Shown in pieces: positions 11,556 to 47,030 of a stretch of 64,000 nt of DNA (position 1 is the first letter of the stretch; the number at the start of each line of letters is the position of its first letter). Both the position numbers and the translations under genes were made by a program. Origin of the DNA: Cohnella sp. OV330 (GTDB taxonomy: Bacteria; Bacillota; Bacilli; Paenibacillales; Paenibacillaceae); contig NZ_FOKE01000002.1 in the NCBI RefSeq assembly GCF_900112065.1, positions 316,236-380,235 on the forward strand, written 5' to 3'. Below the pieces are notes generated by a model, which saw nothing but the letters and a program-made list of their open reading frames with translations, was not told the origin of the DNA and did no database searches.

Positions 11556-12725
11556 CTATTCTTTTTGCGATAGCTGCTCGATCCCGGACGGCGACAGCAC
11601 AGCCGTGGATTTGCCTACGATCAGCTCCGCCTCGAGCGCGATTTTGTGCGGAACCGTCTTGCCGTCGCGCAGTTGCAGCACGTTCTCGAAGGCCGAGCGT
11701 CCCATTTCTTCTTGGTTTTGGCGCAGGTGCGTGAAGGAGAACCCGCTTCCGTTGTCCGGGCAGTCGAAGCAGATGATCGACAAGTCCCGCGGCACGTCCA
11801 GGCTCAACTGCCGGGCCGCTTCTCTGACGAGCAGCGCTAGATTGTACTCCATCGCGAAGAAGGCGGAGATCTCCGGGTGGTCGAGCAGATGCCGCTTGAT
11901 CTTCTCGATATCCTTGGCTTTATTCTCCTCCGTGTAGGCGTTTGGAAGCGTGGACGTGACGCTGAGCCAGAGCTCGCGGTCGACGACGATCCCTTTCTCC
12001 GCGTGCGCTTGCACGTATCCCTCGATCCTGTCCTCGACCGCCGTCGTATCCGTCGGCGGGGGAGTGATAATCGCGATATGCTTGTGCCCCAGCTCGAACA
12101 AATAATCCATGCCGCGCTTCGCCCCGGACACGTTGTCCGTGCTAATGGACCCTGCGGATATCCCCTTCAAATGCCGATCGACGAGCACGAACGGGAATTT
12201 GTCGATGACGAGCTTCAGAATCTCCGCGTTAAAATACTCTCCCTGCGCGGGGAAGATGATCAGTCCGTCTACGCCGAGCTCCAGCATGCTCTGGATCGCT
12301 TTCTCCTCGAGTGACGGGATGCCGAACGAGCGGCGCAGGACGAGAAACGCATCATGCTCCCTGGAAGCTTCCTCCATCCCGTAGACGAGACCGGTGCCGT
12401 AACTGTCGCTGAAGTCGGTCATGACCAGCCCGATCATCGGCCTTGCGCCCGGCATCCCTCCGCGCGCGTTGCCCTTGCCCGGCGCCGCTGAAGCTGCCTC
12501 GGCCTTCGAAGCCGGATCCGCCACGAATGAGCCGCGCCCGGGGCGTCGGACGATGATTCCGCCGTCGGCGAGCAGTTCCAGCGCCTTCTTGCTCGTGATG
12601 CGGCTGACGTTATACGCTTCCGCTAGCTCCTTCTCCGAAGGCACGCGGTCTCCGACCTGGTAATGGCCTGTCCGAATCTCTTCCCGGAGCTTTTCGTATA
12701 TTTGCTCATACATGGAGCTCGACAT
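11556..12725 (-). CDS. GntR-type DNA-binding / LacI-type sugar-sensing transcriptional regulator
   Basis: Read from the ATG at 12725 the protein has 389 residues. Residues 1-70 form a GntR winged helix (PSEKELAEAYNVSRITSKKALELL). About 95-385 form a LacI/PurR periplasmic-binding-protein-like sensor (GLVMTDFSDSYG, FVLVDRHLKG, GHKHIAIITPP). This AraR-like fusion normally represses sugar operons until an oligosaccharide binds. It lies directly upstream of the alpha-mannan operon and is its likely repressor (inference). An ATG at 12758 would add 11 residues but has no ribosome site; AAGGGGAAGG precedes 12725. It is probably autoregulated through the palindrome at 12772. Confidence 0.88.
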   Translation of the reverse strand: MSSSMYEQIYEKLREEIRTGHYQVGDRVPSEKELAEAYNVSRITSKKALELLADGGIIVRRPGRGSFVADPASKAEAASAAPGKGNARGGMPGARPMIGLVMTDFSDSYGTGLVYGMEEASREHDAFLVLRRSFGIPSLEEKAIQSMLELGVDGLIIFPAQGEYFNAEILKLVIDKFPFVLVDRHLKGISAGSISTDNVSGAKRGMDYLFELGHKHIAIITPPPTDTTAVEDRIEGYVQAHAEKGIVVDRELWLSVTSTLPNAYTEENKAKDIEKIKRHLLDHPEISAFFAMEYNLALLVREAARQLSLDVPRDLSIICFDCPDNGSGFSFTHLRQNQEEMGRSAFENVLQLRDGKTVPHKIALEAELIVGKSTAVLSPSGIEQLSQKE

Positions 12726-12771
12726 GGTTCCTTCCCCTTTCCAACAATGCCTCCACACCTTATATATAACA

Positions 12772-12787
12772 ATATATCATGATATAT
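12772..12787. promoter_or_regulatory. Candidate operator palindrome upstream of the GntR/LacI regulator
   Basis: ATATATCATGATATAT is a perfect 16-base palindrome, 47 bases before the regulator start. Its half-site CATGATAT recurs in the promoter spacer of the mannan operon. GntR/LacI fusions such as AraR bind AT-rich palindromes of this size (known); binding here is inferred. Confidence 0.5.
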
Positions 12788-12898
12788 ATATCTTGTGAAG
12801 AACATGCGGGCCGAAAGAACCGATCGGTAGACGCTGCCGCAAAAAATAGCATCGACAATTCGGATGACCGATCCTAATCGTTGCCGCATTGCCAACGC

Positions 12899-13693
12899 TT
12901 AGAAAATCGTCGGAACCATGCCTCCGTCCATCCGGATGGGCGATCCCTTGAACGCGGACGCGTAAGGACTGCATACGAAGGCGGCCAGCCTGCCGATCTC
13001 CATCGGTTTGATAAACCGCCGGATTTCGGATTGCGGCAGGTTCGCGGCCATAAACTTCTTTTCTTTTTCGGAAAATGACAGATTCTCTTCCGGATACATG
13101 CCCGCTATGATTCGATGCACCTTCTCGGAGAGCGTAGGACCCGGCATGATCGTGTTCACCGTAACCTCTGTTCCGATCGTCAGTTTGGACAAGCTTTTCG
13201 CCAGCGACAGCAGCATCGATTTGGTCATCGCGTACTGCGGCATTTGGCTCGACGGCATGATCGCCTCCTCGCTCGCGATGAAGATCACGCGGCCGTACGC
13301 TTTCTCCAGCATTTTCGGCAAATAAAATCGCGTCAAGGCGTTGGCGGCAAGCACGTTCGTGCGAAAGTATGTCTCCCATACGTCGTCGTCCACGTCTTCA
13401 TACCGCATGAGCTCGTAAATCCCCATGTTGTTGACGAGGATGTCGATGTCGGGGTGTTTTTCGAACAGCGCTTCTCTTTGTTCCTTATCGGTCAGGTCGG
13501 CGGCGGCGTTTCGAGGCGCGGTCGACGGGAATCGCGCCTTGATCTCATGGACGGTCCGCTCGACCTCCTCGCGCTCGCGTCCGTTCACGAGCACGTCTAC
13601 GCCTTCCTGGGCGAGTTCGATTGCGATGGCTTTTCCGATGCCTTTCGTGGATCCTGTTACTAATGCTTTTTTATGGTTTAATCCCAATTCCAT
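12899..13693 (-). CDS. SDR-family oxidoreductase
   Basis: This 264-residue classical short-chain dehydrogenase/reductase has a Rossmann nucleotide-binding motif TGSTKGIG (14-21) and the NNMG structural motif (about 88-91). The catalytic Ser lies in IFIASEEA, with YAMTK (Tyr/Lys) following. The C-terminus has the usual RMDGGM ending. It should be a soluble NAD(P)-dependent enzyme; the substrate is unknown. AAAGGAG precedes the ATG. It lies alone between the AraC-type regulator gene (stop 13828) and the GntR/LacI gene, all on the same strand. Confidence 0.92.
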   Translation of the reverse strand: MELGLNHKKALVTGSTKGIGKAIAIELAQEGVDVLVNGREREEVERTVHEIKARFPSTAPRNAAADLTDKEQREALFEKHPDIDILVNNMGIYELMRYEDVDDDVWETYFRTNVLAANALTRFYLPKMLEKAYGRVIFIASEEAIMPSSQMPQYAMTKSMLLSLAKSLSKLTIGTEVTVNTIMPGPTLSEKVHRIIAGMYPEENLSFSEKEKKFMAANLPQSEIRRFIKPMEIGRLAAFVCSPYASAFKGSPIRMDGGMVPTIF

Positions 13694-13827
13694 GCTGCCA
13701 ATCTCCTTTTCATTCAGCCGTCGATGATATCAAGCATGCCGGCGGTCCGGGCAACCATGATCTTACCTCGTCGGGCCCGTCAGGTAACTAGCGGGCGGCG
13801 CCAACCTGCTCGCCGAACCCGCCAACT

Positions 13828-14853
13828 TTAACGCTCGGATGCATGCTGCGCGACTGAATGATCGGCGCGCCAGCAGGTCGGCGTCCTGCCTTCCCAGCGG
13901 CGAAAGGCGCGAAAGAAGGAGTTCTGGTCCTTATAGCCGATCAAAAATGCGACTTCCTTCATGCTGAGCGACGGGTCGGCCAGGTAGGCGCAGGCCTGCT
14001 CGCGTCTGGCTTGCGCCAGCAGTTGCTTGAAGCCCGTGCCCTCCCCCTCAAGCCGGCGCTGCAGCGTGCGATCGCTGACTCCCAGCGACTTCGCGACGGC
14101 TCGTACGTCGAGACGTCCGCTTGCGAGATTGCGCTTCACTTCTTGCTTGACCGCATCCGTCATGGAGCGGCCGCTCAGCCGTTCGTCCAGCGAACGGTCC
14201 AAGGCGGGCGTCAGCAGTTGAACCATCTCTTCATTAAATGAAACGAAGCGACGATCCAGGTCGCTCCGCCGCAGCGTCAAACGGTCGCGCTTCGCGCCGA
14301 TCCGGACCGGACAGCCGAAGTAAGCTTCAAGTGTCCGCACATCGCCCATCGGCTGCGCGAATTCGACGCGCTGCGCCGTCAACCGCAGGCCCGTGCCCCG
14401 GCGCCCGAGCTCCAGCAAATAGGCCAAGGTAACGCCGATCAATACCGGCGGACCGGCAAGAACGGCATCCGACCAGCCCAGGTCGATCATGCAGCGCTCG
14501 CCTTCCTCTTGGATGCTTAGGCTCTCGGGCGGACAGAACTGTTTGTATCGAACGGTTCGATACAGCGCATCCCGGTAATCGCTGGCGTGGTAAGTGGCCA
14601 GAACGGTTGGCGGATACTGCGCGGTTTCGAACGCGGTCGCCAGATCGACGATTCCTTTGGCCAAGTCGCCTGCGAGTTCGGCATAAGCCGTCCAGATGGC
14701 GAAATATTGGGCGGCGGTGACAGCCGATTCATTTATAATCGCATCCGGTAATCCGGCTACGCGGGTCACGTCGCGGCCGGCAATCCCCAAGCGAAACAAC
14801 GCCGACCAAAATCCCGGCGCAATCTTGATAAGTTCGGTCGCATGTTCGTTCAT
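13828..14853 (-). CDS. AraC-family transcriptional regulator (OruR/VirS-like N-terminal domain)
   Basis: This 341-residue protein has an N-terminal region (about 15-205) like the 'arabinose-binding' domain of OruR/ToxT-like AraC regulators. The C-terminal double helix-turn-helix lies at about 235-335 (VRAVAKSLGVSDRTLQRRL; MKEVAFLIGYKDQNSFFRAF). The second helix-turn-helix is the strongly conserved AraC signature. It is divergent from the TetR gene and tandem with the SDR gene at 12899, so either may be its target (inference). AAGGAGCC precedes the ATG. Confidence 0.9.
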   Translation of the reverse strand: MNEHATELIKIAPGFWSALFRLGIAGRDVTRVAGLPDAIINESAVTAAQYFAIWTAYAELAGDLAKGIVDLATAFETAQYPPTVLATYHASDYRDALYRTVRYKQFCPPESLSIQEEGERCMIDLGWSDAVLAGPPVLIGVTLAYLLELGRRGTGLRLTAQRVEFAQPMGDVRTLEAYFGCPVRIGAKRDRLTLRRSDLDRRFVSFNEEMVQLLTPALDRSLDERLSGRSMTDAVKQEVKRNLASGRLDVRAVAKSLGVSDRTLQRRLEGEGTGFKQLLAQARREQACAYLADPSLSMKEVAFLIGYKDQNSFFRAFRRWEGRTPTCWRADHSVAQHASER

Positions 14854-36257: not shown

Positions 36258-36305
36258 GGCAAAGCAAAGAGACACAAGCCCTCCCGCATAGGATGGCTTG
36301 TGTCT
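36258..36305 (-). terminator. Terminator after the tandem KdpD-module gene
   Basis: AGACACAAGCC pairs with GGCTTGTGTCT around a partly paired interior. It lies 13 bases after the stop at 36318. A CTTTGCTTTGC tract follows on the minus strand, only a moderate T-run. Confidence 0.7.
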
Positions 36306-36317
36306 GGCGGAGCCGCT

Positions 36318-38642
36318 TTACTCCCTGGCGCTCCGGTCGAAATCCGCGACGATCAGCATATCGGTCCCCCGCGCCCGGCGGAGCATAAAATGGACGACCG
36401 TCTCCTTCAGCAGCGAGTACCATAGCGGCCGGCGGGATTGGCCGACGATCAGCAAAGTCGCGTTGAGCTCGTTCATGCGCTGCATCAGCGCTTCGCCGAT
36501 CCGCTTGCGGCCGCCGAGGGGAGCGACTTCCATCCTGCCCCCAAGCCGTTCGCATAGCTGGCGCAGCGTATCCAGTCGTTTGGCGGCATCGCCGCCAGGC
36601 TCGGCGCTTTTCTGCACATAATGCACGTGCCATTCCGCCTTCAGCCGGTGCGCGATACGGAACCCGCGGCGAATGAGCCGCTCGGCGCGCGGGCCCGCGT
36701 CCACGCAGACGAAGATCATCTCCTGCCGGCGCCATTGGCCGCGAAGCGAGGCGTTGCGGTCCCACGCTTCCAGGCGTTCGTCCACGTCGTCCGCCAGCTC
36801 GCGGAGCGCCAGCTCCCGCAAGGCGATCAGATTACCGATTTTGAAAAAAGAGCCTAACGCTTGATCGACCTTCTCCGCCGCGTAAATCTTCCCTTCGCGC
36901 ATGCGCTGCTGCAGCATTTGCGGGGTGACGTCGATCAGCTCCACCTCGTCCGCCAGCTTCAGGATCGCGTCCGGCACCGTCTCCCGCACGCGCACGCCCG
37001 TCAACTGCTCCACCGCGTCGTTCAGGCTCTCCAGATGCTGCACGTTAACGGTAGAAATGACGGAAATGCCTTGATCCAGCAAGCGGAGGACGTCCTCGAA
37101 CCTTTTTTTGTGTCGGCTTCCCGGCACGTTCGTATGCGCCAGCTCGTCGACCAGGACGACCTCGGGCCGGCGCGCGACGATCGCGTCCGTGTCCATCTCT
37201 TCGAGCCGTGCCGATTGATAAGGGATGACGGCTCTCGGCACGATCGGCAGACCCCCGACTTGCGCCGCCGTCTCCTTTCTCCCGTGCGTCTCCAGGAGGC
37301 CGATGACGACAGCGATCCCTTTTGCGAGCAAGCTGTTGCCCTCTTGCAGCATCTTGAAGGTTTTGCCGACTCCCGGGGCCGCTCCGATATAAACCTTAAA
37401 GGTGCCGCGGCGGATCGTTTCGATTTTTTGCTCGATTTCTCCCGAGCTGAGACGGCGATACCGCTCCGCGGCCGCTTTAGGCTTCGGCTTGATCGGCAGG
37501 ATGCGCTCGCCCGTCTGTTCCGCGCGATCCGCCATAATGAACACGTCGATGTTCCTCGTTTTCCGAAGCACCCGGTTGGCGATGGAGCCCTGCCACCGCT
37601 CCTGCCAGCGGTTCTTATCGGAATGCCCCATCACGATGCGCGTGACATTGTTGTCGGTCGCGTAGCGCACGAGCAGCGACGGAAGCTGGCGCCTATTGGG
37701 GAGCGGCAGCTCCTCGAACTTGGCGTCCACCTTCTGGGCCAGCTTTTGAATGGACCGCTTGAACGCCTGCTGGTCCTTCGACAGCGCCCGCCTCGGACGC
37801 ACGAACGTAACGACGATCAAATCGCCGTTCAACCGTCTGGCAATTTGTTGTCCTCTGCGCACGTGAAGCGAGCCGTTCCAATGATACTGCGCCGAGACCA
37901 GGATACGCTCGGCGGCTCCGGACGGGCCGACGAGTCCCTGCTGCTCCCGGTGCTTTTCCAGCGAATCGTTCACGCCCTCCGCCATCAATCTGAGCGAGAT
38001 TTCCCGCAGCACGCCGAGATTGCCGCGGCGGCACATCGCGGGATGCCGCCGGCCGCCCAGAACGCCTTCGTCGATCCGCTTCAGGATCGTCTCCGGCGAC
38101 ACGTCGATCAGCCGCACCTCGTCCGCCAGCTCCAGCGTGTCGGAAGGCACCGTCTCCTCCGCGCGTATGCCGGTCAGCTTGTAGACGATCTCGTCTTCCC
38201 CTTCCAGCTCGTACACGTTGATCGTCGTGATGACGCTGATGCCGTGATCCATCAGGTAACGGATATCCTCCAGCCGCGTCTTGAACTGCGCTCCCTCGCG
38301 GTTGCGGTGGGCCAGGCCGTCGACGAGCACCACCTCCGGGTTGCGGGCGAGCAGCGCCTCGAGCGGCAGATCCTTCTGCTCCATGTCGCCCTTGCGCCAA
38401 CGGATGCTGGGCACGCGCTCGAGCTCGAGCGTCTGCTGCACCGTTTCCGCGCGCTGCATCGTCGATACCGCGCAGATGACTACGTCGATCCCTTGCTGCT
38501 TCAAGAGGTTGCCTTCGCGCAGCATATGATACGTTTTGCCCGATCCGCTTACCGCGCCGATGATGACTTTTAAGCGGCCCCGATGCAGTTTCGATATCGA
38601 ATGCAGAATCTCTTCCGGCGTTTTGCGCCGATACTCCGTCAC
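36318..38642 (-). CDS. Free-standing protein of two tandem KdpD N-terminal (KdpD + USP) modules, no kinase domain
   Basis: This 774-residue soluble protein starts at a GTG 3 bases after GGAGGGGAG. It consists of two copies, about 391 residues apart, of the N-terminal half of the potassium sensor KdpD. Copy 1 (about 10-375) has Walker A GAVSGSGKT (29-37) and VDGLAHRN. Copy 2 (about 400-770) has Walker A GAAPGVGKT (420-428) and VDELAHTNVPGS. Each copy ends in a universal-stress-protein-like domain. Copy 1 has Gly where KdpD has the acidic Walker B residue, so its ATPase may be altered. There are no membrane spans, GAF or HisKA domains; those lie in the gene at 44765. It is the last gene of the kdp operon. 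Free KdpD modules are known, but a tandem pair is unusual as far as I can judge. Confidence 0.9.
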   Translation of the reverse strand: MTEYRRKTPEEILHSISKLHRGRLKVIIGAVSGSGKTYHMLREGNLLKQQGIDVVICAVSTMQRAETVQQTLELERVPSIRWRKGDMEQKDLPLEALLARNPEVVLVDGLAHRNREGAQFKTRLEDIRYLMDHGISVITTINVYELEGEDEIVYKLTGIRAEETVPSDTLELADEVRLIDVSPETILKRIDEGVLGGRRHPAMCRRGNLGVLREISLRLMAEGVNDSLEKHREQQGLVGPSGAAERILVSAQYHWNGSLHVRRGQQIARRLNGDLIVVTFVRPRRALSKDQQAFKRSIQKLAQKVDAKFEELPLPNRRQLPSLLVRYATDNNVTRIVMGHSDKNRWQERWQGSIANRVLRKTRNIDVFIMADRAEQTGERILPIKPKPKAAAERYRRLSSGEIEQKIETIRRGTFKVYIGAAPGVGKTFKMLQEGNSLLAKGIAVVIGLLETHGRKETAAQVGGLPIVPRAVIPYQSARLEEMDTDAIVARRPEVVLVDELAHTNVPGSRHKKRFEDVLRLLDQGISVISTVNVQHLESLNDAVEQLTGVRVRETVPDAILKLADEVELIDVTPQMLQQRMREGKIYAAEKVDQALGSFFKIGNLIALRELALRELADDVDERLEAWDRNASLRGQWRRQEMIFVCVDAGPRAERLIRRGFRIAHRLKAEWHVHYVQKSAEPGGDAAKRLDTLRQLCERLGGRMEVAPLGGRKRIGEALMQRMNELNATLLIVGQSRRPLWYSLLKETVVHFMLRRARGTDMLIVADFDRSARE

Positions 38643-38665
38643 CGGCTCCCCTCCTATATCCGCGA

Positions 38666-39457
38666 TTACAGCGCCTGCCGTTCCAAAAATTGCTCGATAA
38701 CGGCATTAAAGGTTTCCGGCTGGCATAGGCTGCTCGGTTCGTTGGCATCGGGGATGATCGCCAATTTGGCTTGCGGCAGATGAGAGACGACTTCCTTCAT
38801 TCGCTCGACGCCATATACCGTGCAATCGCCGACGACGCCCAATGCAGGCCGATTAAAATCGGTTAAATGGGCCGAGTAGTCGATACGCCTGGTCGCCAGC
38901 CGCTGCCGGTATAGCTCGCGCGGTCTCCGGTCAAGCACGTTTCGTCTGAGCTCGCTGTAAGCCAGCCCCCAACGCCGGTATGCGAGGCGCAGCGAGGGGA
39001 GCAGCAGCTCGCCTGGCGCGTAGTAGTCCATCCAGCTAAGATACGCCGCCGCCAGCTGAAGCTTGCCCAAGATCGTCGAAACTTCGCTGCGGCAGAAGCT
39101 GTCGGCGATGACGATCGCCTTGACCCGCTCCGGATACTGCTTCGCGATCTGCTGAACGATCAAGCCGCCGTACGCGATGCCGACGAACACCGCTTCGCGG
39201 ATCTGGAGCGCGTTGAGCAGCATGATCAAATCCAGGCACTGCGTATCGATAATATCATCCGGAGACTGCCGCAATTCGCCGGAGCGCCCGTTGCCGCGCA
39301 GATCGCAGGCAATGACCCGGTATCGTTCGGAAAAGTAATCGAGCTGGGGCTTGAACATGCGATGCGTCCAGCCGTGCCCATGAATAAATAGAAGGGCGGG
39401 TCCGCTTCCTTGCGTTTCATAGTAGAGCGACGTTCCATTGAGATTGACGACCGGCAA
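38666..39457 (-). CDS. Alpha/beta-hydrolase-fold protein lacking catalytic Ser and His, in the kdp operon
   Basis: Starting at a TTG 6 bases after AGAGGTG the protein has 263 residues; a GTG at 39466 would overlap that ribosome site. It has the oxyanion-hole segment FIHGHGWTHRMF and CDLRGNGRSG. The nucleophile elbow (GxSxG in active enzymes) reads GIAYGG, with Ala (about residue 95) for Ser. The acid is kept (VVGDCTVYG), but the usual GH near the C-terminus reads AN (PDANEPSSLCQPETFN), replacing the catalytic His with Asn. Two of the three triad residues are thus lost and hydrolysis is unlikely. It sits between kdpC and the tandem KdpD gene, suggesting a regulatory or scaffold role. Confidence 0.88.
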   Translation of the reverse strand: MPVVNLNGTSLYYETQGSGPALLFIHGHGWTHRMFKPQLDYFSERYRVIACDLRGNGRSGELRQSPDDIIDTQCLDLIMLLNALQIREAVFVGIAYGGLIVQQIAKQYPERVKAIVIADSFCRSEVSTILGKLQLAAAYLSWMDYYAPGELLLPSLRLAYRRWGLAYSELRRNVLDRRPRELYRQRLATRRIDYSAHLTDFNRPALGVVGDCTVYGVERMKEVVSHLPQAKLAIIPDANEPSSLCQPETFNAVIEQFLERQAL

Positions 39458-39471
39458 ACTGTCCACCTCTT

Positions 39472-40119
39472 TTATTTGGGATATTCGTTATTGGCCAGCT
39501 TTTCCTTCAAAGCGAGATTGAGCTTCAGCACGTTCACCCGCTTGTCTCCGAAGACGCCCAGGTCGCGGTCCTCGGTAAAGGCGCCGACCAGCGACGTCAG
39601 ATAGGCCGCGGACAAGCCGGTCAACTTGGCGATTCTCGGAATCTGCACAAGCGCAGATTGCGGCGTAATATGGGGATCGAGCCCCGAGCCCGAATTGGTG
39701 ATCAGCGCGATGGGCAGTCGATCGGCCGGCACATCCGGATTCTCCGTTTGCCACTGCGCGATCGATGCCTTGACGCGGGCGAGGAGGTCCGGATTGGAAG
39801 GCCCGTAATTGTTCGAGCCGGAGGCCTCCGCCTTATAGTCGATGCTGGATACGCGTCCCTGAAAATAGCTCGGATCGGCGAACGACTGCCCGATCAGCTC
39901 GGAGCCGACCACGTTGCCGTCCTTATCCTTGAGCAAGCTGCCGTTCGCCTGATGGGGGAAAAGCAACTGCGCGAGACCCGTGCTGACCAACGGGTATACG
40001 ATGCCGCACAATAGGATGAACAGCAGGCTGATGCGAATGGCGATCCATAGCGTCGAGCCGCCGGAGCGCTCTTCTTGCCCGTCTTGTCCGTTTTGTCCGT
40101 TTTGTACCAACGTGCTCAT
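39472..40119 (-). CDS. kdpC: Potassium-transporting ATPase subunit KdpC
   Basis: The start at the ATG 40119 (AAGGAAC upstream) gives 215 residues; an in-frame ATG at 40194 is possible but has no ribosome site. One N-terminal span (about 25-45: IAIRISLLFILLCGIVYPLV) is followed by the conserved KdpC exterior, with GSELIGQSF, GRVSS and SGLDPHITP. KdpC stabilises the KdpFABC complex and aids K+ binding in the high-affinity pump. It is in order kdpFABC and is followed after 14 bases by the hydrolase-fold gene. A short Gln/Asn/Gly repeat (NGQNGQDGQ) at the N-terminus is unusual. Confidence 0.96.
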   Translation of the reverse strand: MSTLVQNGQNGQDGQEERSGGSTLWIAIRISLLFILLCGIVYPLVSTGLAQLLFPHQANGSLLKDKDGNVVGSELIGQSFADPSYFQGRVSSIDYKAEASGSNNYGPSNPDLLARVKASIAQWQTENPDVPADRLPIALITNSGSGLDPHITPQSALVQIPRIAKLTGLSAAYLTSLVGAFTEDRDLGVFGDKRVNVLKLNLALKEKLANNEYPK

Positions 40120-40180
40120 GGCGGGTTCCTTCTTTCCTTCAATTAGGGTCCTGTAAAATAAAAGGCATGCGCCGTCGCGA

Positions 40181-42217
40181 TCAGATCCATACATGGACGA
40201 GCAAATCGATCAGCTTGATGCCGACGAAGGGAGCTACGATCCCGCCTAATCCGTAGACGAGCAAATTGCGGCTAAGCAGGCGCGAGGCGCTCATCGGCCG
40301 GTAAGCGACGCCCTTCATCGCAAGCGGGATCAGCAGCGGAATGATGATGGCGTTGAACACGAGTGCCGACACTATGGCCGACAGCGGCGACCCGAGCTGC
40401 ATCACGTTCAGCGCGTCCATTTGGGGAATCGCCAGCATGAACATAGCCGGGATGATCGCGAAGTATTTGGCGATATCGTTGGCGATGCTGAAGGTCGTCA
40501 AGGCGCCGCGGGTCATGAGCAGCTGCTTGCCGATGGCGACCACCTCGATGATCTTGGACGGATCCGAATCGAGATCGACCATGTTGGCCGCTTCTTTGGC
40601 CGCGGTCGTGCCGCTGTTCATCGCCAGTCCGACGTCCGCTTGCGCGAGCGCCGGCGCGTCGTTCGTCCCGTCTCCGGTCATGGCGACCAGCTTGCCGTCG
40701 GCCTGCTCGCGCCGGATGACCGCGATCTTGTCCTCCGGCTTGCTCTCCGCGATAAAGTCGTCCACGCCCGCTTCCCTGGCGATCGTCGCCGCCGTCAGCG
40801 GATTGTCGCCCGTGCACATGATCGTCTTGATGCCCATCGCGCGCAGCTGGTCGAACCGCTCCTTCATCCCCGGCTTCACCGTGTCCTTCAGGTAGATGAC
40901 GCCGAACACCCGCTTGTCGACCGCCACGGCCAGCGGCGTGCCGCCCTCCGAGGCGATGCGGTCCGCTTGCCTGCCGAGATCGTCGGGAACGGCGCCGCCC
41001 TGCGCCGACACCCACTTGCGGATCGCGTCGACCGCGCCTTTGCGGACCTGGCGTCCGTCAGGCAGATCGATGCCGCTCATCCGTGTTTCCGCCTTGAATT
41101 CCACGAAGCTGCCGCCCACGCCCAGCGAAGCGTCGTAGGTTTTTCCGTTTCTCTTCATCCATTCCAGCACGGAACGGCCCTCAGGCGTCTCGTCCTGAGT
41201 CGAAGCGATCGCCGCCCAGGCTGCCGTCTCGTCGATGCGGGCTTCGCCGACCGGCACGATATCGCCGGCCATCCGGTTGCCGAAGGTGATCGTGCCGGTC
41301 TTGTCGAGGATCATCGTATTGATATCGCCCGCGGCCTCGACCGCCTTGCCCGACATCGCGAGCACGTTGAACTGCGTCACCCGGTCCATGCCGGCGATGC
41401 CGATCGCCGACAGCAGCCCGCCGATCGTCGTCGGGATGAGGCAGACCAGCAGCGCGATCAGCACCGGCACCTCCAGCTCGACGTCCACGTAGGAGGCGAT
41501 CGGCCCGAGCGTGACGACGACGATCAGGAAGATGATCGTCAGGCTGATGAGCAGCGTGTTCAAGGCGATCTCGTTGGGCGTCTTCTGCCGCTTGGCGCCT
41601 TCGACGAGCGCGATCATCCGATCGATGAACGTCTCCCCCGGATCGCTCGTGATCCTCACCTTGATCCGGTCGCTGATGACGCGCGTGCCGCCCGTGACGG
41701 AGTTGAAGTCCCCGCCCGCTTCCTTGATGACGGGAGCGGATTCGCCGGTGATGGCCGATTCGTCGACGGAGGCCAGCCCCTCGATCACTTCGCCGTCTCC
41801 GGGGATCATCTCGCCCTGCGAGACGACGACGACGTCTCCTTTTCGCAGCTCGGTCGAGGGCACAGTCTTCACGCCGCCGCCGTTTACGACTTTATTCGCG
41901 GTGATTTCCTTTTTCGTCCGCTTCAGCGTGTCGGCCTGCGCTTTGCCTCTGCCCTCCGCCAGCGCTTCGGCGAAGTTGGCGAACAGCACCGTGAACAGGA
42001 GGATCAGGAATACCGCCAGATTGAAGCCGATGCGGTCCTTCGCATCGAAGTAACCGGGAAACAGCGTCATGAGCAGTACGATCGCCGTGCCGACCTCGAC
42101 GACGAACATGACGGGATTTTTCATCATGACCGCCGGATTCAGCTTGATCACGCTCGCCTTCAGGGCGTCTGCGACCAGCGGTCCGGAAAACATGCTTTTT
42201 TTGCGTTTATCGTTCAC
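40181..42217 (-). CDS. kdpB: Potassium-transporting P-type ATPase, catalytic subunit KdpB
   Basis: This 678-residue P-type ATPase has the phosphorylation motif DKTGT (Asp305), the actuator motif TGES (157-160), and the hinge [18 protein letters not shown]. Membrane spans fit KdpB. Ser160 in TGES matches the E. coli Ser162 that is phosphorylated to inhibit the pump (known in E. coli), so the inhibitory site is present. Full length for the family. It is preceded by kdpA (19 bases) and followed by kdpC. Confidence 0.97.
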
Positions 42218-42235
42218 GGCAGTTCACTCCATCTC

Positions 42236-43918
42236 TTATTGGCGAATCGTCAGATGCTCCGCGACGGGTCCGAGTACGATCGCGGGCAGGAAGGTCAGCG
42301 CGCCGATCAGAATGACCGTCCCTATTAACAGAAAAGTGAACAGCGCATTGTCCGTACGGAACGTGCCGATCGTCCCCGGCACCCACTGCTTGCGCGTCAT
42401 CGAACCGGCGACGGCCAGCAGCGCGATCATCGATACGTAGCGTCCGAAAAACATAACGAGGCCGGTCGTAATATTCCAAAACGGCGTATTGTCCGCCAGG
42501 CCCTCGAAGCCGGAGCCGTTGTTGGCGGCCGACGACGTATATTCGTAAAGCACCTGCGAGATGCCGTGAAAACCCGGATTCGAGATCGAGCCTTTGCCCA
42601 GATCGGTCAGGAAGGCGATCGCCGTCGGCGCCAATATAATGAACGGATGCGTCAATATGGCGACCGCGATCAGCTTCATCTCGCGCGGCTCGATCTTCCG
42701 CCCCAGGAACTCCGGCGTTCGGCCGACCATCAGGCCGCAGATGAACACGGCGAGCATCGCGTACATCAGCATGTTGACCAGTCCGACGCCCTTGCCGCCG
42801 AATACGACGTTCAGCATCATCTCGGAGAGCGGCACCAGTCCGCCCAGCGGGGTGAGCGTATCGTGCATATTGTTGACCGTGCCCGTCGTTGCCGCCGTCG
42901 TGACCGTAGTGAACAGCGCGGACTGGGCGATGCCGAAGCGCACTTCCTTCCCTTCCATGCTGCCCTGCGAAGCGTCGATGCCCAGCGCTTCAAGCGCGGG
43001 ATTGCCGCTCTTTTCCGTCGTATATGCAACCGTTAGAAACACGAGGAACAAAGCCATCATGGCCGAAAAAATGACCCAGCCGTGCTTGCGGCTCTTCGCG
43101 AACCGGCCGTACGTAAAGGGCAGCGCGGCAGGCAGCGCCCACATCGACAGAATCTCGATCACGTTCGTCAGCGCGCTTGGATTCTCGAACGGATGCGCCG
43201 AGTTCGCGCCGAAAAAGCCGCCGCCGTTCGTGCCCAGATGCTTGATCGCTTCCAGCGAGGCGACGGGCCCGATCGCGATCTGCTGCGCGGCGCCTTGAAG
43301 CGTCGTCACCGACAGCGTCGGATCCAGCGTCTGCGGCACTTGCAGCGCGACCAACAGCAGCGTGACGATGATCGCAAGCGGAAAAAAAATCCGGGTGTGC
43401 GCCTTGACGAAGTCCTCGAAGAAGTTGCCCAGCGTCTTGCCTCTGCTCGTAATGCCCCTGACAAAGGCCACCGCCACCGAGAAGCCGGTCGCCGCGGACG
43501 TGAACATCATCATCATGATGACCGCCATCTGCGAAAAGTAGCTTAAGCCCGTCTCGCCGCTGTAATGCTGCAGATTCGTATTCGTAATGAAGCTGATGAC
43601 CGTATTCATCACCAGCGTCGGCTCCATATTGCCGATTCCGTTCGGATTGAACGGCAACCCGTTCTGTACGCGCAGCAGGATATAACTGACCGCCACGAGC
43701 GCGAAGTTGATGGCGACGAAGCTGAACGCATACCGCTTCCAGCTCATCCCGGCGCGGACTTTAAGTCCGACGAGCGCGAAGATCGGCTTCTCGACCCAGC
43801 CGAACAGCCTGTCGGTCCGATTGGGCTCGTTCGAGAAGACGTGGAAGACGTAATTTCCGAGCGGCTGCGCGATCAGCATGAGCAAGCCGATCACGATGAC
43901 GATTTGCAAGAAATCCAT
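42236..43918 (-). CDS. kdpA: Potassium-transporting ATPase, K+-channel-like subunit KdpA
   Basis: This 560-residue protein has ten predicted spans of the SKT family. Selectivity-filter regions are visible: TNTNLQHYSGETGLS (first pore loop) and LGTNGGGFFGANSAHPFEN (second). The later repeats include AATTGTVNNMHDTLTPLGG and SSAANNGSGFEGL. It lets K+ into the KdpFABC complex before KdpB-driven transport. It is the third ORF after the riboswitch, with GGAGGAAAGGCC before the ATG. Confidence 0.97.
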   Translation of the reverse strand: MDFLQIVIVIGLLMLIAQPLGNYVFHVFSNEPNRTDRLFGWVEKPIFALVGLKVRAGMSWKRYAFSFVAINFALVAVSYILLRVQNGLPFNPNGIGNMEPTLVMNTVISFITNTNLQHYSGETGLSYFSQMAVIMMMMFTSAATGFSVAVAFVRGITSRGKTLGNFFEDFVKAHTRIFFPLAIIVTLLLVALQVPQTLDPTLSVTTLQGAAQQIAIGPVASLEAIKHLGTNGGGFFGANSAHPFENPSALTNVIEILSMWALPAALPFTYGRFAKSRKHGWVIFSAMMALFLVFLTVAYTTEKSGNPALEALGIDASQGSMEGKEVRFGIAQSALFTTVTTAATTGTVNNMHDTLTPLGGLVPLSEMMLNVVFGGKGVGLVNMLMYAMLAVFICGLMVGRTPEFLGRKIEPREMKLIAVAILTHPFIILAPTAIAFLTDLGKGSISNPGFHGISQVLYEYTSSAANNGSGFEGLADNTPFWNITTGLVMFFGRYVSMIALLAVAGSMTRKQWVPGTIGTFRTDNALFTFLLIGTVILIGALTFLPAIVLGPVAEHLTIRQ

Positions 43919-43961
43919 GGCCTTTCCTCCTTGGGCATTAGCGACTCAGACGAGAACATGT

Positions 43962-44039
43962 TTAAAACTTCTCCGGGTGCAGCAGGGCGTACACCAGGTA
44001 GATCAGCAGCAGGCCCGTGAAGATCAGCACGATCGTCAT
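43962..44039 (-). CDS. kdpF: Potassium-transporting ATPase small subunit KdpF
   Basis: This 25-residue peptide starts at ATG 44039, with GGAGAGGAG upstream, and reads MTIVLIFTGLLLIYLVYALL then HPEKF. It is a single span followed by the typical L-x-P-E-x-F ending of KdpF, which stabilises the KdpFABC complex. Its start overlaps the stop of the small ORF at 44036-44152 (ATGA). It precedes kdpA by 43 bases. Confidence 0.95.
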   Translation of the reverse strand: MTIVLIFTGLLLIYLVYALLHPEKF

Positions 44040-44152
44040 GCGCGCTCCTCTCCCGTCTTGTCGATCGATCTGTCGCACCAGATCACGAACCCGACGACAA
44101 GCGCGAAGGCGGCGATCAACGTCAACGTCATCCAAATATCAAGCAAATTCAT
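44036..44152 (-). CDS. Small membrane peptide upstream of kdpF
   Basis: This 38-residue ORF starts at an ATG 4-5 bases after AAAAGGAG, the first coding region after the riboswitch terminator. It has a single span (about 5-26: DIWMTLTLIAAFALVVGFVI) and a hydrophilic tail CDRSIDKTGEERA. The stop overlaps kdpF (ATGA), so the two are translationally coupled. I do not recognise it with certainty. It may stabilise the Kdp complex like KdpF, or be a coupled leader peptide. Confidence 0.75.
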   Translation of the reverse strand: MNLLDIWMTLTLIAAFALVVGFVIWCDRSIDKTGEERA

Positions 44153-44189
44153 ACACTCCTTTTCCTTCCGCAAGTAGAAAAAAAGCAAC

Positions 44190-44233
44190 AAAAAAGAAGC
44201 CCGGCAAAGGAGGAACCTTTACCGCGGCTTCTT
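44190..44233 (-). terminator. Riboswitch-controlled terminator of the kdp operon
   Basis: On the minus strand AGAAGCC pairs with GGCTTCT, with an inner TAAAGG/CCTTTG stem. TTTTTTGTTGC follows. It begins immediately after the aptamer P1 3' strand and lies 38 bases before the first ORF. That is the expected expression platform, which terminates when c-di-AMP is bound. Confidence 0.88.
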
Positions 44234-44452
44234 GATCAAGACCGTCGTCTTGGATCGCGCGCGACAAGCGTTGCCTCTCCGATACGCTTGCGAGGTTAGC
44301 TGTCGGATTCGGGCGCGAGAGTCGCCCTACGCCGGGCACGGTTCTTGTGCCAAGCGATTCACCCCTGGAGCCGATGATGGCTCCGGTTGGTTCCCCCGTT
44401 CCTGGTCGTACCAGGATTCAGCGTCTAACGATGCGTAAAGCGGTTCTTGATC
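44234..44452 (-). ncRNA. c-di-AMP riboswitch (ydaO/yuaA type) controlling kdp
   Basis: On the minus strand, the closing stem GATCAAGA/TCTTGATC (44452-44445 with 44241-44234) encloses the hallmark sequences of the ydaO/yuaA class. These are CGGGGGAACC (near 44396), GGGGTGAATC (near 44365), GTAGGG (near 44326) and CCGAATCCGACAGCTAACCT (44313-44294) followed by CGCAAGCG. These blocks are the c-di-AMP-binding core. The downstream terminator makes an off-switch: high c-di-AMP, which reports ample potassium, stops kdp transcription. This class is known to control K+ importers in Bacillus; regulation here is inferred from the structure. Confidence 0.93.
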
Positions 44453-44764
44453 CCTTCTTTCATCGAGCCGTCAAATCCGCGCCTCCTTGCTTGCGAGGCA
44501 TCGTTCTGCACGTATCTTAAGCCCGGCCGCAATTGCTGTAAAGGAACCCAACTTTCATTTCAGACGATATTCTATAACATTCGCTCGGGATGGAAATAAA
44601 TAGACTCTTAAGCTCCGGATTTCTCTCAAATGCTAAATATTATTACGATTATGAGTGATTTTTATAGTATTTTTACACCCTTTTACGGTTTATTTTCTCC
44701 GCTTTTTACAGTAACCTTAAGGAAAACGAGTCCGGAAAATCGAGCGGGCGGGAAGTGGAATTTC
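44453..44764. promoter_or_regulatory. Divergent promoter region between the kdp riboswitch and the kinase gene
   Basis: These 312 bases hold no gene. The AT-rich stretches 44555-44625 and 44625-44725 contrast with flanking GC-rich DNA and should carry the promoters of both transcription units. TATAGAAT on the minus strand (about 44578-44571) is a possible -10 for kdp. No clear KdpE-type operator was recognised by eye. An upstream ATG at 44630 is in frame with the kinase but lacks a ribosome site. Confidence 0.45.
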
Positions 44765-46339
44765 GTGCGGAATATGCAAGCTTTATGGGCGCTCTGGCGG
44801 CCTTATGCCAGCATCGCCCTCCTGATCGCGCTCATGACGTTGGTCATGCATCTGCTCGGACTTGCGTTCGACCTGGTGAACATTGCGCTGATCTATTTAT
44901 TTCCGATGCTGGTCAGCGCGGTGTGGTGGGGCCTTCGGCCTGCGGTCTTTGCAGCCGTGCTCGCGATCGTCGCGTTGGATTTCTTTTTTGTGCCCCCGAC
45001 GCTCAGCTTCTCGGTCGCGGACTTGCGGTATTTGGTTTCATTCGCCGTCTATGTAGCCGTCGCCGCGCTGACCGCCAGTCTGGCTTCGAGGCTCAAGCAG
45101 CAGCTGCGCTATTCCAAGCAGAGAGAAGCGCAAACGGCTGCTTTATATACGCTGAGCAGGCAGATGAACGCAATCACCGACGTGCATGCCTTATTGGATA
45201 ACGTCTCGCTCCAAGCAGCGCAGTCGATGGGCAGCGAGATCGCGATCTATATGCCAGGCCCCTCGGGACTTCTGGCGCTCACCCACCGCTCTGCTTCGGA
45301 TAGCGACTGGGGACAAGGCGATGCGGAAAAAGCGACCGCCAAGCTGGCCTTCGACCACGGCGAAGCGATCGGCTACGGTTCGTATACGCTGCGGGACTTG
45401 CCCGGCTACTACTTGCCGCTGCGAACCGAGGACCGCGTATACGGCGTGCTCGCGCTGAATCTGAAGGAGCGAAAAAGCTTTTTTAACGCCGGGCAGCGGG
45501 AAATGCTCGAGGCGCTGGGCGGACTGGCGGCCAGCGCCATCGCCCGCGCGAAGCTGGCCGAGGAGGCCAAGCTCGCCCACCTGACGGCCGAATCCGAACG
45601 TCTGCGCACGGCCATCCTCGACTCCGTATCGCATGAGCTGCGTACGCCGCTTGCTGCGATTATCGGCTCCGCCACCGTGCTGGCGGCGGACGACGATCTT
45701 TTTACGCCCGAGGACCGGAAGGAGCTCTTGATCAACATTCGCGACGGCGCGCTGCGGATGAACCGGTTGGTAAGAAATCTGCTCAGCATGGTCCAGCTGG
45801 AAAGCGGCATGCTGCGTCTGCGTAAAAACTGGTGCGGCGTGGAGGATTTGATCGGGGTGACGCTGGCTCAGGTCCAGGACTACAAGGAGCATCGCAAGCT
45901 GCAGGTACGGCTGCCCGAGCAAATTCCGTTGGTGTCCGGGGATGAAGTGCTGCTGGAGCAGATGCTGGCGAACGTGGTCGGCAATGCGATCAAGTACAGC
46001 CCGGACTACAGCGAGATCGACATCGCGGTGTCGTCCGATTCGGACACGCTCGTCATTGCCGTGGCCGATCAGGGGGTCGGACTCGCGGATGAGGAATATG
46101 CCCGGATCTTCGATAAGTTTTATCGCGCCGATGCCACCAGGCAAGTGACGGGCACGGGATTGGGGCTCGCCATCTGCAAAGGAATCGCGGAGCTGCACGG
46201 CGGTACGATATCGGGAAGGCGCAACGAGCCGCGAGGCACGGTCATGACGATCGCGCTTCCGATGAGCAAGCCGGTTGAACGGCAAACTCGGCAAGATCGA
46301 TTAAAGGAACAGGAGACGGAGGACGGTGGCAATGAATGA
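44765..46339 (+). CDS. Sensor histidine kinase with DUF4118 and GAF domains (KdpD kinase core without sensor module)
   Basis: Starting at GTG 44765 (GGGAAG upstream; ATG 44774 is an alternative) the protein has 524 residues. Four membrane spans (about 12-115; DFFFVPPTLSFSV) form the DUF4118 domain of KdpD. A GAF-like domain (about 135-265) follows, then HisKA with phospho-acceptor SVSHELRTPLAAIIGSA and an HATPase domain (NAIKYS, ADQGVG, GTGLGLAICKGIAELHGG). The KdpD and USP domains that normally precede the spans in KdpD are absent. They are encoded at 36318 instead. It overlaps the regulator gene by 8 bases, and should phosphorylate KdpE. Confidence 0.93.
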   Translation: MRNMQALWALWRPYASIALLIALMTLVMHLLGLAFDLVNIALIYLFPMLVSAVWWGLRPAVFAAVLAIVALDFFFVPPTLSFSVADLRYLVSFAVYVAVAALTASLASRLKQQLRYSKQREAQTAALYTLSRQMNAITDVHALLDNVSLQAAQSMGSEIAIYMPGPSGLLALTHRSASDSDWGQGDAEKATAKLAFDHGEAIGYGSYTLRDLPGYYLPLRTEDRVYGVLALNLKERKSFFNAGQREMLEALGGLAASAIARAKLAEEAKLAHLTAESERLRTAILDSVSHELRTPLAAIIGSATVLAADDDLFTPEDRKELLINIRDGALRMNRLVRNLLSMVQLESGMLRLRKNWCGVEDLIGVTLAQVQDYKEHRKLQVRLPEQIPLVSGDEVLLEQMLANVVGNAIKYSPDYSEIDIAVSSDSDTLVIAVADQGVGLADEEYARIFDKFYRADATRQVTGTGLGLAICKGIAELHGGTISGRRNEPRGTVMTIALPMSKPVERQTRQDRLKEQETEDGGNE

Positions 46340-47030
46340 GCAAGGCGCACGGATCCTGATCGTGGACGACGAGCCGCAAATCCGCAAGCTGCTTCGCGTG
46401 ACGCTGCAGGCCTATCGATTCGTCATTCACGAAGCGGCGACAGGCGAGGAAGGGCTGGAGCAAGCGGCCTTGGTTTGTCCGGATTTGATCCTGCTCGACC
46501 TCGGGCTGCCTGATCTGTCCGGCCTGGAGGTGCTGAGCCGCATCCGGGAATGGTCGCTTGCGCCGATCATCGTGCTGACGGCCAAGGACAGGGAGGAAGA
46601 CAAGATCGTGGCGCTGGACGGCGGCGCGGACGACTACGTGACCAAGCCGTTCAGCATGGGCGAGCTGGTCGCCCGCATCCGGGTGGCGCTGCGGCATGCG
46701 GCGGCCCATTCGGTTAACGAGCCTGTCCTATCGTTCGGCGCGCTGACGATCGATCTCGTTCGCCGCGTCGTCGAGTTGAACGGCGAGCGAGTGAAGCTGA
46801 CTCCGACCGAGTACGACCTGCTTAAGCTTCTGGCCGTGAGCGCCGGCAAGGTCGTCACGCAGCGGCAGCTGCTGCAGCAGGTGTGGGGCGACCAGCACGG
46901 CGAGTCCGACAGCCACTACCTGCGAGTATACATCGGCCATCTGCGCAAAAAACTGGAGGCGGATTCCACGCAGCCTCAGTATATATTAACGGAGCCGGGA
47001 GTCGGATATCGGTTTCGCTCTCGCGAATAG
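46332..47030 (+). CDS. kdpE: Response regulator KdpE (OmpR/PhoB family)
   Basis: The predicted 232-residue protein starts at the ATG 46332, 9 bases after GGAGG and inside the end of the kinase gene. The receiver domain (1-120) has the DDE pair IVDDEP, the acceptor Asp in LILLDLGLPDLSG, and AKD and KPF. The C-terminal winged helix (about 130-230) has KLTPTEYDLLKLLAV and TEPGVGYRFRSRE. Together with the kinase at 44765 it forms the Kdp two-component system that would turn on the divergent kdp operon at low K+. Confidence 0.94.
   Translation: MNEQGARILIVDDEPQIRKLLRVTLQAYRFVIHEAATGEEGLEQAALVCPDLILLDLGLPDLSGLEVLSRIREWSLAPIIVLTAKDREEDKIVALDGGADDYVTKPFSMGELVARIRVALRHAAAHSVNEPVLSFGALTIDLVRRVVELNGERVKLTPTEYDLLKLLAVSAGKVVTQRQLLQQVWGDQHGESDSHYLRVYIGHLRKKLEADSTQPQYILTEPGVGYRFRSRE

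Follow-up and report, generated by a model that had tools for sequence, protein, structure and literature searches.

Many Gram-positive bacteria cannot do without cyclic di-AMP (c-di-AMP), a dependence that is largely a matter of potassium. The locus reported here is a kdp potassium-pump operon that lies in a stretch of 64,000 nucleotides from Cohnella sp. OV330 (the window), and it can be compared with two described systems. In Escherichia coli the N-domain of KdpD acts as an atypical serine kinase that phosphorylates Ser162 of KdpB; a short KdpD-USP protein phosphorylates KdpB under c-di-AMP control, and serine and histidine kinases on separate chains have already been described (PMC11018627). 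In Bacillus thuringiensis BMB171 a ydaO-type off-switch precedes kdpFABC and a short KdpD of 365 residues is encoded behind kdpC; no kdpE was found, and the available part of the report mentions no hydrolase gene (PMC6488665). The Cohnella operon shares the off-switch and the position of the KdpD-type gene with BMB171 and differs in that it carries a gene for an alpha/beta-hydrolase-fold protein (HYD) between kdpC and a gene for a tandem KdpD-USP protein (DN), and in that genes for a histidine kinase and KdpE lie divergently beside it.

DN resembles the short KdpD of Deinococcus geothermalis in being a KdpD-USP protein without a histidine kinase and in having the Walker A motif, Asp109/Glu110 and Arg190, with the TGES motif in KdpB. 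Unlike that protein, DN is a tandem, its first module lacks the catalytic Glu and the USP pocket of this module is distinctive (PMC11018627). Both modules match the NCBIfam family NF038185 (KdpD_non_kinase; 753.5 bits over two stretches, cut-off 550), whose model describes one module of 373 positions where DN has two. The riboswitch and KdpDE have been called mutually exclusive for kdp (PMC6488665). The window locus contradicts this exclusion, and riboswitch, kinase and KdpE are also found together at three further loci, L266, L268 and L271 (L numbers designate loci).

A kdp riboswitch combined with a truncated KdpD (PMC6488665), the serine kinase activity of short KdpD with its split chains (PMC11018627) and the NF038185 family are thus already known. 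New, as far as the literature was searched, are a candidate pseudokinase–kinase fusion in DN and a family of HYD proteins without catalytic histidine in the c-di-AMP/K+ regulon. Our preferred reading, to which we give a probability of about 0.5, is that the locus belongs to the c-di-AMP regulon as an operon for K+ limitation under riboswitch and KdpE control, in which DN would shut the pump (module 2 as the kinase, module 1 as a pseudokinase) and HYD would be a receptor or adaptor without catalysis.

The hydrolase-fold family

The fold of HYD was recognized by sequence profile (PF00561, 6e-21, plus PDB profile matches), and family libraries see the protein only as a generic alpha/beta hydrolase. 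The preliminary description had read it as a hydrolase-fold protein without catalytic Ser and His, and this was borne out. With residues numbered along the 266-residue frame opening at 39466, the nucleophile serine is replaced by Ala98 (GIAYG for GxSxG) and the catalytic histidine by Glu243, and hence of the features of a serine hydrolase the window copy has the fold and lacks both of these residues. A profile built from 18 homologs gave 73 unique family sequences scoring at least 190 bits, with generic hydrolases at 156 or less. The catalytic histidine is missing in 70 of the 71 readable family members (Asp in 28, Tyr in 26, others in the remainder). In a cleaned set it was present in 1 of 60 core members compared with 34 of 34 generic homologs; this residue survey left out L078, L079, L132 and 12 of the 46 generic rows, which were fragments or came from loci with misfiled pieces (the L078 and L136 rows filed as generic, and likewise the L135 rows, are fragments of family members). 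At the nucleophile position the 60 core members have Ser (44), Ala (11), Asp (4) or Gly (1).

The family also has residues of its own. Q76, D122, Y163, W166, Y170, R181, Q188 and C248 are near-invariant in the core and rare in generic homologs, as are P244 and L247 of a PS(N/H)LCQP motif. These core-specific residues lie partly where the catalytic histidine was and partly in residues 145–191, a region that we take to be the lid usual in this fold. Cys248 and His35 are invariant in the 60 core members, and around the catalytic acid the sequence has changed as well, as judged by eye. HYD shares the profile fold and a DxRGxGxS motif with esterases and enol-lactonases (PDB 5egn and 4uhc; PcaD and RutD models), and differs from them in the histidine lost across the family, the serine lost from the window copy, the family residues and the PS(N/H)LCQP motif. 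Most likely HYD descends from a hydrolase and now serves in binding, as a receptor or an adaptor. The plant gibberellin receptor GID1, an alpha/beta hydrolase turned receptor after loss of the catalytic histidine, offers an analogy for how HYD could work.

The ratio of nonsynonymous to synonymous substitution rates (dN/dS) for HYD against its closest relative is 0.083, close to the 0.084 of DN and below the 0.137 of KdpC, with 0.064 for KdpB; across four pairs it ranges from 0.04 to 0.14, and L207 and L208 were among the sequences paired in this analysis. Because of this purifying selection we regard HYD as maintained and not decaying. The possibility that it is a mobile passenger was rejected, there being no match of at least 60% identity in plasmid or phage collections.

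The searches of this study covered samples of 245, 392 and 348 genomes and 80 named loci of 160 relatives. Twenty-two of the 73 HYD loci are linked to Kdp, in three gene orders: kdpC-HYD-DN (14 loci including the window), kdpC-DN-HYD (L103, L108-L110, L128 and L129) and HYD followed by full-length KdpD, KdpE, KdpA and KdpB (L080 and L081). The recurrence of the gene order in relatives, which the preliminary description had put forward as a check, was therefore found, together with two variants of it. In a further 17 loci the link is with Mrp antiporter genes and/or a KtrB-type TrkH, in two with genes read as khtT-khtU and in one with a gene read as kimA; the names KimA, KhtT and KhtU are our own presumptive assignments. 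Transporter labels were given by BLAST against reference proteins from the loci of this study, and label examples were upheld at the level of the family with Pfam (MNHE, PhaG_MnhG_YufB, TrkH, TrkA_N/TrkA_C, TrkA_C, Na_H_Exchanger, AA_permease_2 and KdpD). Most HYD members without cation-transport neighbours have a c-di-AMP riboswitch directly before them, which was first seen in 11 loci with Rfam.

Both kinds of link were counted in the core clade of 63 members (Shimodaira–Hasegawa-like approximate likelihood ratio support, SH-aLRT, 99), defined as the 73 sequences minus the fragment L212 and minus L113, L114, L116, L120, L123, L127, L130, L131 and L133. In this clade 42 of 63 members lie in an operon with a cation-transport gene, of five kinds, and 32 lie directly behind a c-di-AMP riboswitch; 12 have both links and 62 have at least one. 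The riboswitch stands at the head of a kdp operon in 8 of the 63, the window included. The same RNA model found a riboswitch in 0 of 39 generic hydrolase loci (L137 and L233 being the same gene), and the idea that such linkage is a property of any alpha/beta hydrolase was rejected on this control. In one generic locus, L162, the third downstream gene matches KdpD by BLAST, probably as any histidine kinase would. A Fisher value of 1.7e-27 for the core link counts is no true probability because the sequences are related. On the HYD tree, built without L212 and L130 and rooted with an outgroup of 6 generic sequences, at least 11 changes of context and 8 changes of the direct riboswitch are required, from which we conclude that HYD joined operons of the regulon repeatedly.

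The riboswitches directly before HYD are of two designs. One, in 15 core loci, has its aptamer end only 5-10 bases ahead of the conserved start, and in the nine of these that were viewed a purine-rich ribosome-binding stretch lies inside the 3' strand of the aptamer (by eye). In the other expression platform, found in 17 core loci, the distance from aptamer to start is 90-172 bases, and a terminator-like hairpin was seen by eye in the gap of the six loci viewed. With two off-switch designs before one gene, HYD itself looks like the regulated target. Of the 30 aptamers that went into the riboswitch model (R1), 11 lie before HYD. The model was run over 74 loci; those 11 match it by construction, although they were first found by Rfam at the gathering score, and 21 of the 32 HYD loci directly behind a riboswitch were not among the training aptamers.

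Several observations on single HYD loci may be recorded. Tandem c-di-AMP aptamers on one strand precede HYD in L086, L094, L111, L115, L199 and L204. L108, L109 and L110 are near-identical kdp-DN-HYD stretches from records of an uncultured Brevibacillus metagenome-assembled genome, Paenibacillus sp. 32O-W and Siminovitchia terrae, which may represent transfer or misassigned contigs. A protein of 92-104 residues with no Pfam match is encoded directly behind HYD in L118 (6835-7110) and L112 (6809-7120), in L118 between HYD and KtrB.

The tandem KdpD-USP protein

That DN is one protein of two KdpD-USP modules, as the preliminary description had it, was upheld by Pfam and NCBIfam matches to each module, and neither transmembrane nor histidine-kinase domains were found in it. 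Its residues were mapped on the numbering of E. coli KdpD. Lys37, Thr38, Asp109 and Arg190 are present in both modules of all 48 tandem proteins. Glu110 is present in module 2 of all 48 and lost from module 1 of all 48 (Gly in 41, Ala in 3, and Asp, Asn, Ser and His in one each). In the window, module 1 retains the P-loop and has Gly in place of the catalytic Glu110, and module 2 has the serine-kinase residues (Walker A, Asp/Glu and Arg190) except that W39 is Phe, a position occupied by Tyr or Phe in 30 single-module relatives. These residues suggest that DN is a pseudokinase fused to a kinase. Its candidate substrate in this organism is KdpB, which has TGES from residue 157, with Ser160 equivalent to the serine phosphorylated by KdpD in E. 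coli.

Further Bacilli contain a second class of tandem proteins (10) with Glu110 in both modules. In a class resembling the window protein in its QYHWNGS stretch, Glu110 is kept in L289 and L297 and lost in L285, L286, L287, L290, L292, L296 and L300. A tree of 67 tandem proteins requires at least 3 changes between kept and lost Glu and 10 residue changes. On this evidence module 1 most probably started out as a kinase module and later lost the catalytic base, keeping its nucleotide site; probably it binds nucleotide and regulates module 2. The dN/dS of DN against its closest relative is 0.084.

KdpD proteins as long as DN are common in the taxonomic family. NF038185 is matched at E 0.001 or better, in some cases weakly, in 200 of the 245 family genomes, and among the matches listed (to about 1e-126) the strong ones lie in open frames of 759-915 residues. 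At E 1e-60 it is matched in 123 of the 348 class genomes, where the matches listed comprise single modules of about 363-465 residues, tandem proteins of about 754-843 and full-length-like proteins of 897-943. In G632 and G622, from one family, the two modules are separate neighbouring frames. Behind the tandem DN of L270 lies a second KdpD-type protein (11805-14387, an 885-residue frame with degenerate kinase residues), followed by KdpE. The full-length KdpD proteins beside HYD in L080 (4756-7461) and L081 (5078-7783) have Gln for Glu110 and a change in the P-loop Thr or the Walker B Asp. In the Cohnella-type loci L072/L284 and L078, the kinase, DN or HYD is split into two frames, by sequencing error or real breaks.

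The preliminary description had also put forward the binding of c-di-AMP to DN as a check. The USP domain of Staphylococcus aureus KdpD binds it, with the motif (A/G/C)xSxSxxN(Y/F) (PMC8214093, PMC4686210). This motif was looked for in DN and was found in neither USP domain: the corresponding positions read SAQYHWNG in module 1 and CVDAGPRA in module 2. The module 1 stretch QY(H/Y)WNGS is strongly conserved in most of the 48 tandem proteins, and that of module 2 is variable. None of 30 single-module short KdpDs from other Bacilli has the full S. aureus motif either, and yet a short KdpD of Bacillus anthracis is reported to bind c-di-AMP (PMC11302148); the motif therefore cannot decide whether DN binds it.

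The locus and its genome

The assembly (7.47 Mb, 29 contigs) is 99.94% complete, and the nearest named relatives of the HYD gene are from Paenibacillus and Cohnella. The features of the locus are as follows.

36318..38642, (-): DN, tandem KdpD-USP protein (PF02702 twice, Usp twice; NF038185 twice)
36318..37457, (-): module 2 of DN, with the serine-kinase residues K37, T38, D109, E110 and R190, and Phe at W39
37458..38642, (-): module 1 of DN, with P-loop, Gly at the Glu110 equivalent, and a USP domain with QYHWNGS
38666..39457, (-): HYD, putative pseudoenzyme of alpha/beta-hydrolase fold (Abhydrolase_1, 6e-21; catalytic columns; Shine-Dalgarno sequence)
39472..40194, (-): kdpC (PF02669, TIGR00681)
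40181..42217, (-): kdpB (TIGR01497)
42236..43918, (-): kdpA (PF03814, TIGR00680)
43962..44039, (-): kdpF (PF09604, E 1.7e-7)
44036..44152, (-): microORF (a very small open reading frame) of 38 codons, hydrophobic, overlapping the kdpF start, no Pfam match over cut-off
44202..44224, (-): terminator-like stem-loop 3' of the aptamer, in the expression platform (9-pair stem, then a T-run)
44270..44433, (-): c-di-AMP (ydaO/yuaA) riboswitch aptamer (Rfam RF00379)
44630..46339, (+): membrane histidine kinase core (DUF4118-GAF-HisKA-HATPase), the C-terminal part of KdpD (Pfam)
46326..47030, (+): kdpE-like response regulator (Response_reg, Trans_reg_C)

All four pump genes are present, KdpF being identified by Pfam and KdpA, B and C by Pfam and NCBIfam. 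The true start of kdpC is probably internal, near 40119, from our reading of alignments, and the kinase gene may begin later than 44630. HYD more likely starts at the TTG at 39457, behind the Shine-Dalgarno sequence AGAGGTGG, and DN is preceded by GGAGGGG. With Shine-Dalgarno sequences of their own and gaps to the preceding gene of 14 bases (HYD, from this TTG) and 23 bases (DN), both look like parts of the operon. The microORF contains a WCDR motif; by eye, 20 of 22 kdp loci have a comparable open reading frame before kdpF, which in 15 contains a W-C pair.

The riboswitch that had been read before kdpF-A-B-C stood up well, matching RF00379 over positions 1-134 of 134 and scoring 90.2 bits where the gathering score is 38; the aptamer is predicted to bind c-di-AMP and turn the operon off. 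As regards the terminator claimed with it, the stem and T-run are there, and the stem scan by itself does no better than chance (one hit, compared with a mean of 0.7 and an sd of 0.9 in shuffles). The genome has seven c-di-AMP riboswitches and two diadenylate cyclase domains. Three of the other riboswitches, at G000:C29:1586-1744 (L003), C12:77444-77655 (L005) and C23:88299-88442 (L009), precede genes that look by eye KimA-like, G5/3D-domain-like and NlpC/P60-like, respectively. A comparison of coordinates showed that none of the five weaker hydrolase matches of the genome adjoins any of its seven riboswitches. Tandem aptamers on one strand were seen before kdp in L265, L267, L269, L272 and L286.

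Pfam confirmed the divergent kinase core and the KdpE-like regulator, which among the NCBIfam models scores highest with that of KdpE (268.9 bits, under the cut-off of 325). KdpD and USP domains on the one hand and transmembrane, GAF, HisKA and HATPase parts on the other, which a full-length KdpD holds on one chain, are here divided between two genes. A complete KdpD elsewhere, which would have spoken against a split sensor, was not found across the 29-contig assembly, given that its only KdpD-domain matches are the two modules of DN and its only DUF4118 match is the divergent kinase.

Weighing the explanations

In our preferred reading, the K+-limitation operon, c-di-AMP would fall when K+ becomes limiting and the riboswitch would read through, with the divergent kinase/KdpE pair adding transcriptional activation, so that kdpFABC, HYD and DN would be made. 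When K+ returns, module 2 of DN, a soluble atypical serine kinase, would phosphorylate the TGES serine of KdpB and the pump would stop. Module 1 would be a nucleotide-binding pseudokinase that gates module 2 by nucleotide and USP state. HYD, we infer, would bind a ligand or partner and tune cation transport or its sensor. In a more tentative extension, which we place somewhat below an even chance, HYD would be the first known of a group of histidine-less, hydrolase-derived receptors in c-di-AMP-controlled K+/Na+ homeostasis, binding a small molecule or c-di-AMP and acting on several unrelated transporters (Kdp, Ktr, KimA, KhtTU and Mrp) or on a sensor common to them, and the dead half of DN would gate the live half.

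A number of observations weigh against the K+-limitation operon. Some of the 44 core members with Ser might still do chemistry, the nearest solved structures by profile are the ordinary esterases 5egn and 4uhc, and broken or shortened HYD copies occur in L078/L102, L079/L104, L132 and L212. The core member L088 and 9 deep family members have neither cation-transport link nor riboswitch. No riboswitch was found before kdp in L073, L077, L080, L081, L099 and L100, where the operon head is in view, nor in L200, a longer copy of L100 with the head well in view; in eight more kdp-linked loci the stretch ends at or short of the head, and the longer copies L210 and L222 showed none in the roughly 300 bases in view before kdpA. 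Next to HYD, none was found in the KimA-like locus, the KhtTU loci and five Mrp/Ktr loci (L087, L117, L118, L126 and L132). Neither USP domain of DN has the S. aureus c-di-AMP motif, and the full-length KdpD next to HYD in L080 and L081 has degenerate serine-kinase residues.

HYD could still be an enzyme that works with different catalytic residues (a Ser or Asp nucleophile with another base, or Cys chemistry) and acts on a small molecule of the K+ or osmotic response. The frequent Ser, the Asp in 4 core members as a possible nucleophile and the invariant Cys248 and His35 would fit such an enzyme. We consider it unlikely, on the other hand, given the Ala of the window copy, the replacement of the nucleophile by Ala, Asp or Gly in separate branches of a family already without the histidine, and the change in the catalytic-acid region seen by eye. 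A slightly less probable place for HYD is the envelope or osmolyte branch of the regulon and not K+ transport. The NlpC/P60-like and G5/3D-like frames of cell-wall type behind other riboswitches of the genome (by eye) point that way, against which stand the 42 of 63 core members in operons with cation-transport genes of five kinds and the absence of a signal peptide at the predicted start MPxxxxNGT, as read from the sequence. That HYD is a passenger gene decaying after the loss of catalysis is very improbable. The broken copies would agree with decay; other genes are frame-broken too in the L072 and L078 assemblies, where sequencing error is possible, and we rejected decay on the purifying selection and the recurrent linkage to the regulon.

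The preliminary description had cast DN as a sensor of c-di-AMP which, docked in trans on the truncated histidine kinase, would control KdpE. DN and the kinase do make up the two halves of KdpD, the kinase gene directly follows DN in L021, L027, L030, L033 and L037, and the c-di-AMP binding of S. aureus KdpD-USP would provide the signal (PMC4686210, PMC8214093). As stated, however, docking as the main role of the soluble protein is unsupported, and we rate it about as doubtful as an enzymatic HYD. Besides the missing S. aureus motif, no kinase gene was found in the 16 kb searched around DN in L267, L269 and L273, deletion of the short KdpD of B. thuringiensis left kdp transcription unchanged (PMC6488665), and the demonstrated activity of the KdpD N-domain is on KdpB (PMC11018627).

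No paper was found that joins c-di-AMP or ydaO with such a hydrolase-fold gene, with a listing in Block 2010 or Nelson 2013 being possible; earlier ydaO-riboswitch papers do not, in the parts available, describe the HYD gene, and one of them lists a cell-wall-associated hydrolase behind the switch. For DN, the name "non-kinase" of NF038185 would be misleading if the serine-kinase activity is true. DN proteins form a series from one module through two intact modules to a dead–live pair, and this series offers a direct way to test how the KdpD serine kinase is regulated. The recurrence of the HYD family beside K+/Na+ transporters or behind the same c-di-AMP switch makes HYD part of the regulon in our reading and suggests that it is a new component of potassium signalling. 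Since the family sits with five kinds of cation-transport genes and mostly has its own riboswitch when standing alone, it is a strong candidate for a component so far missing from the c-di-AMP/potassium network.

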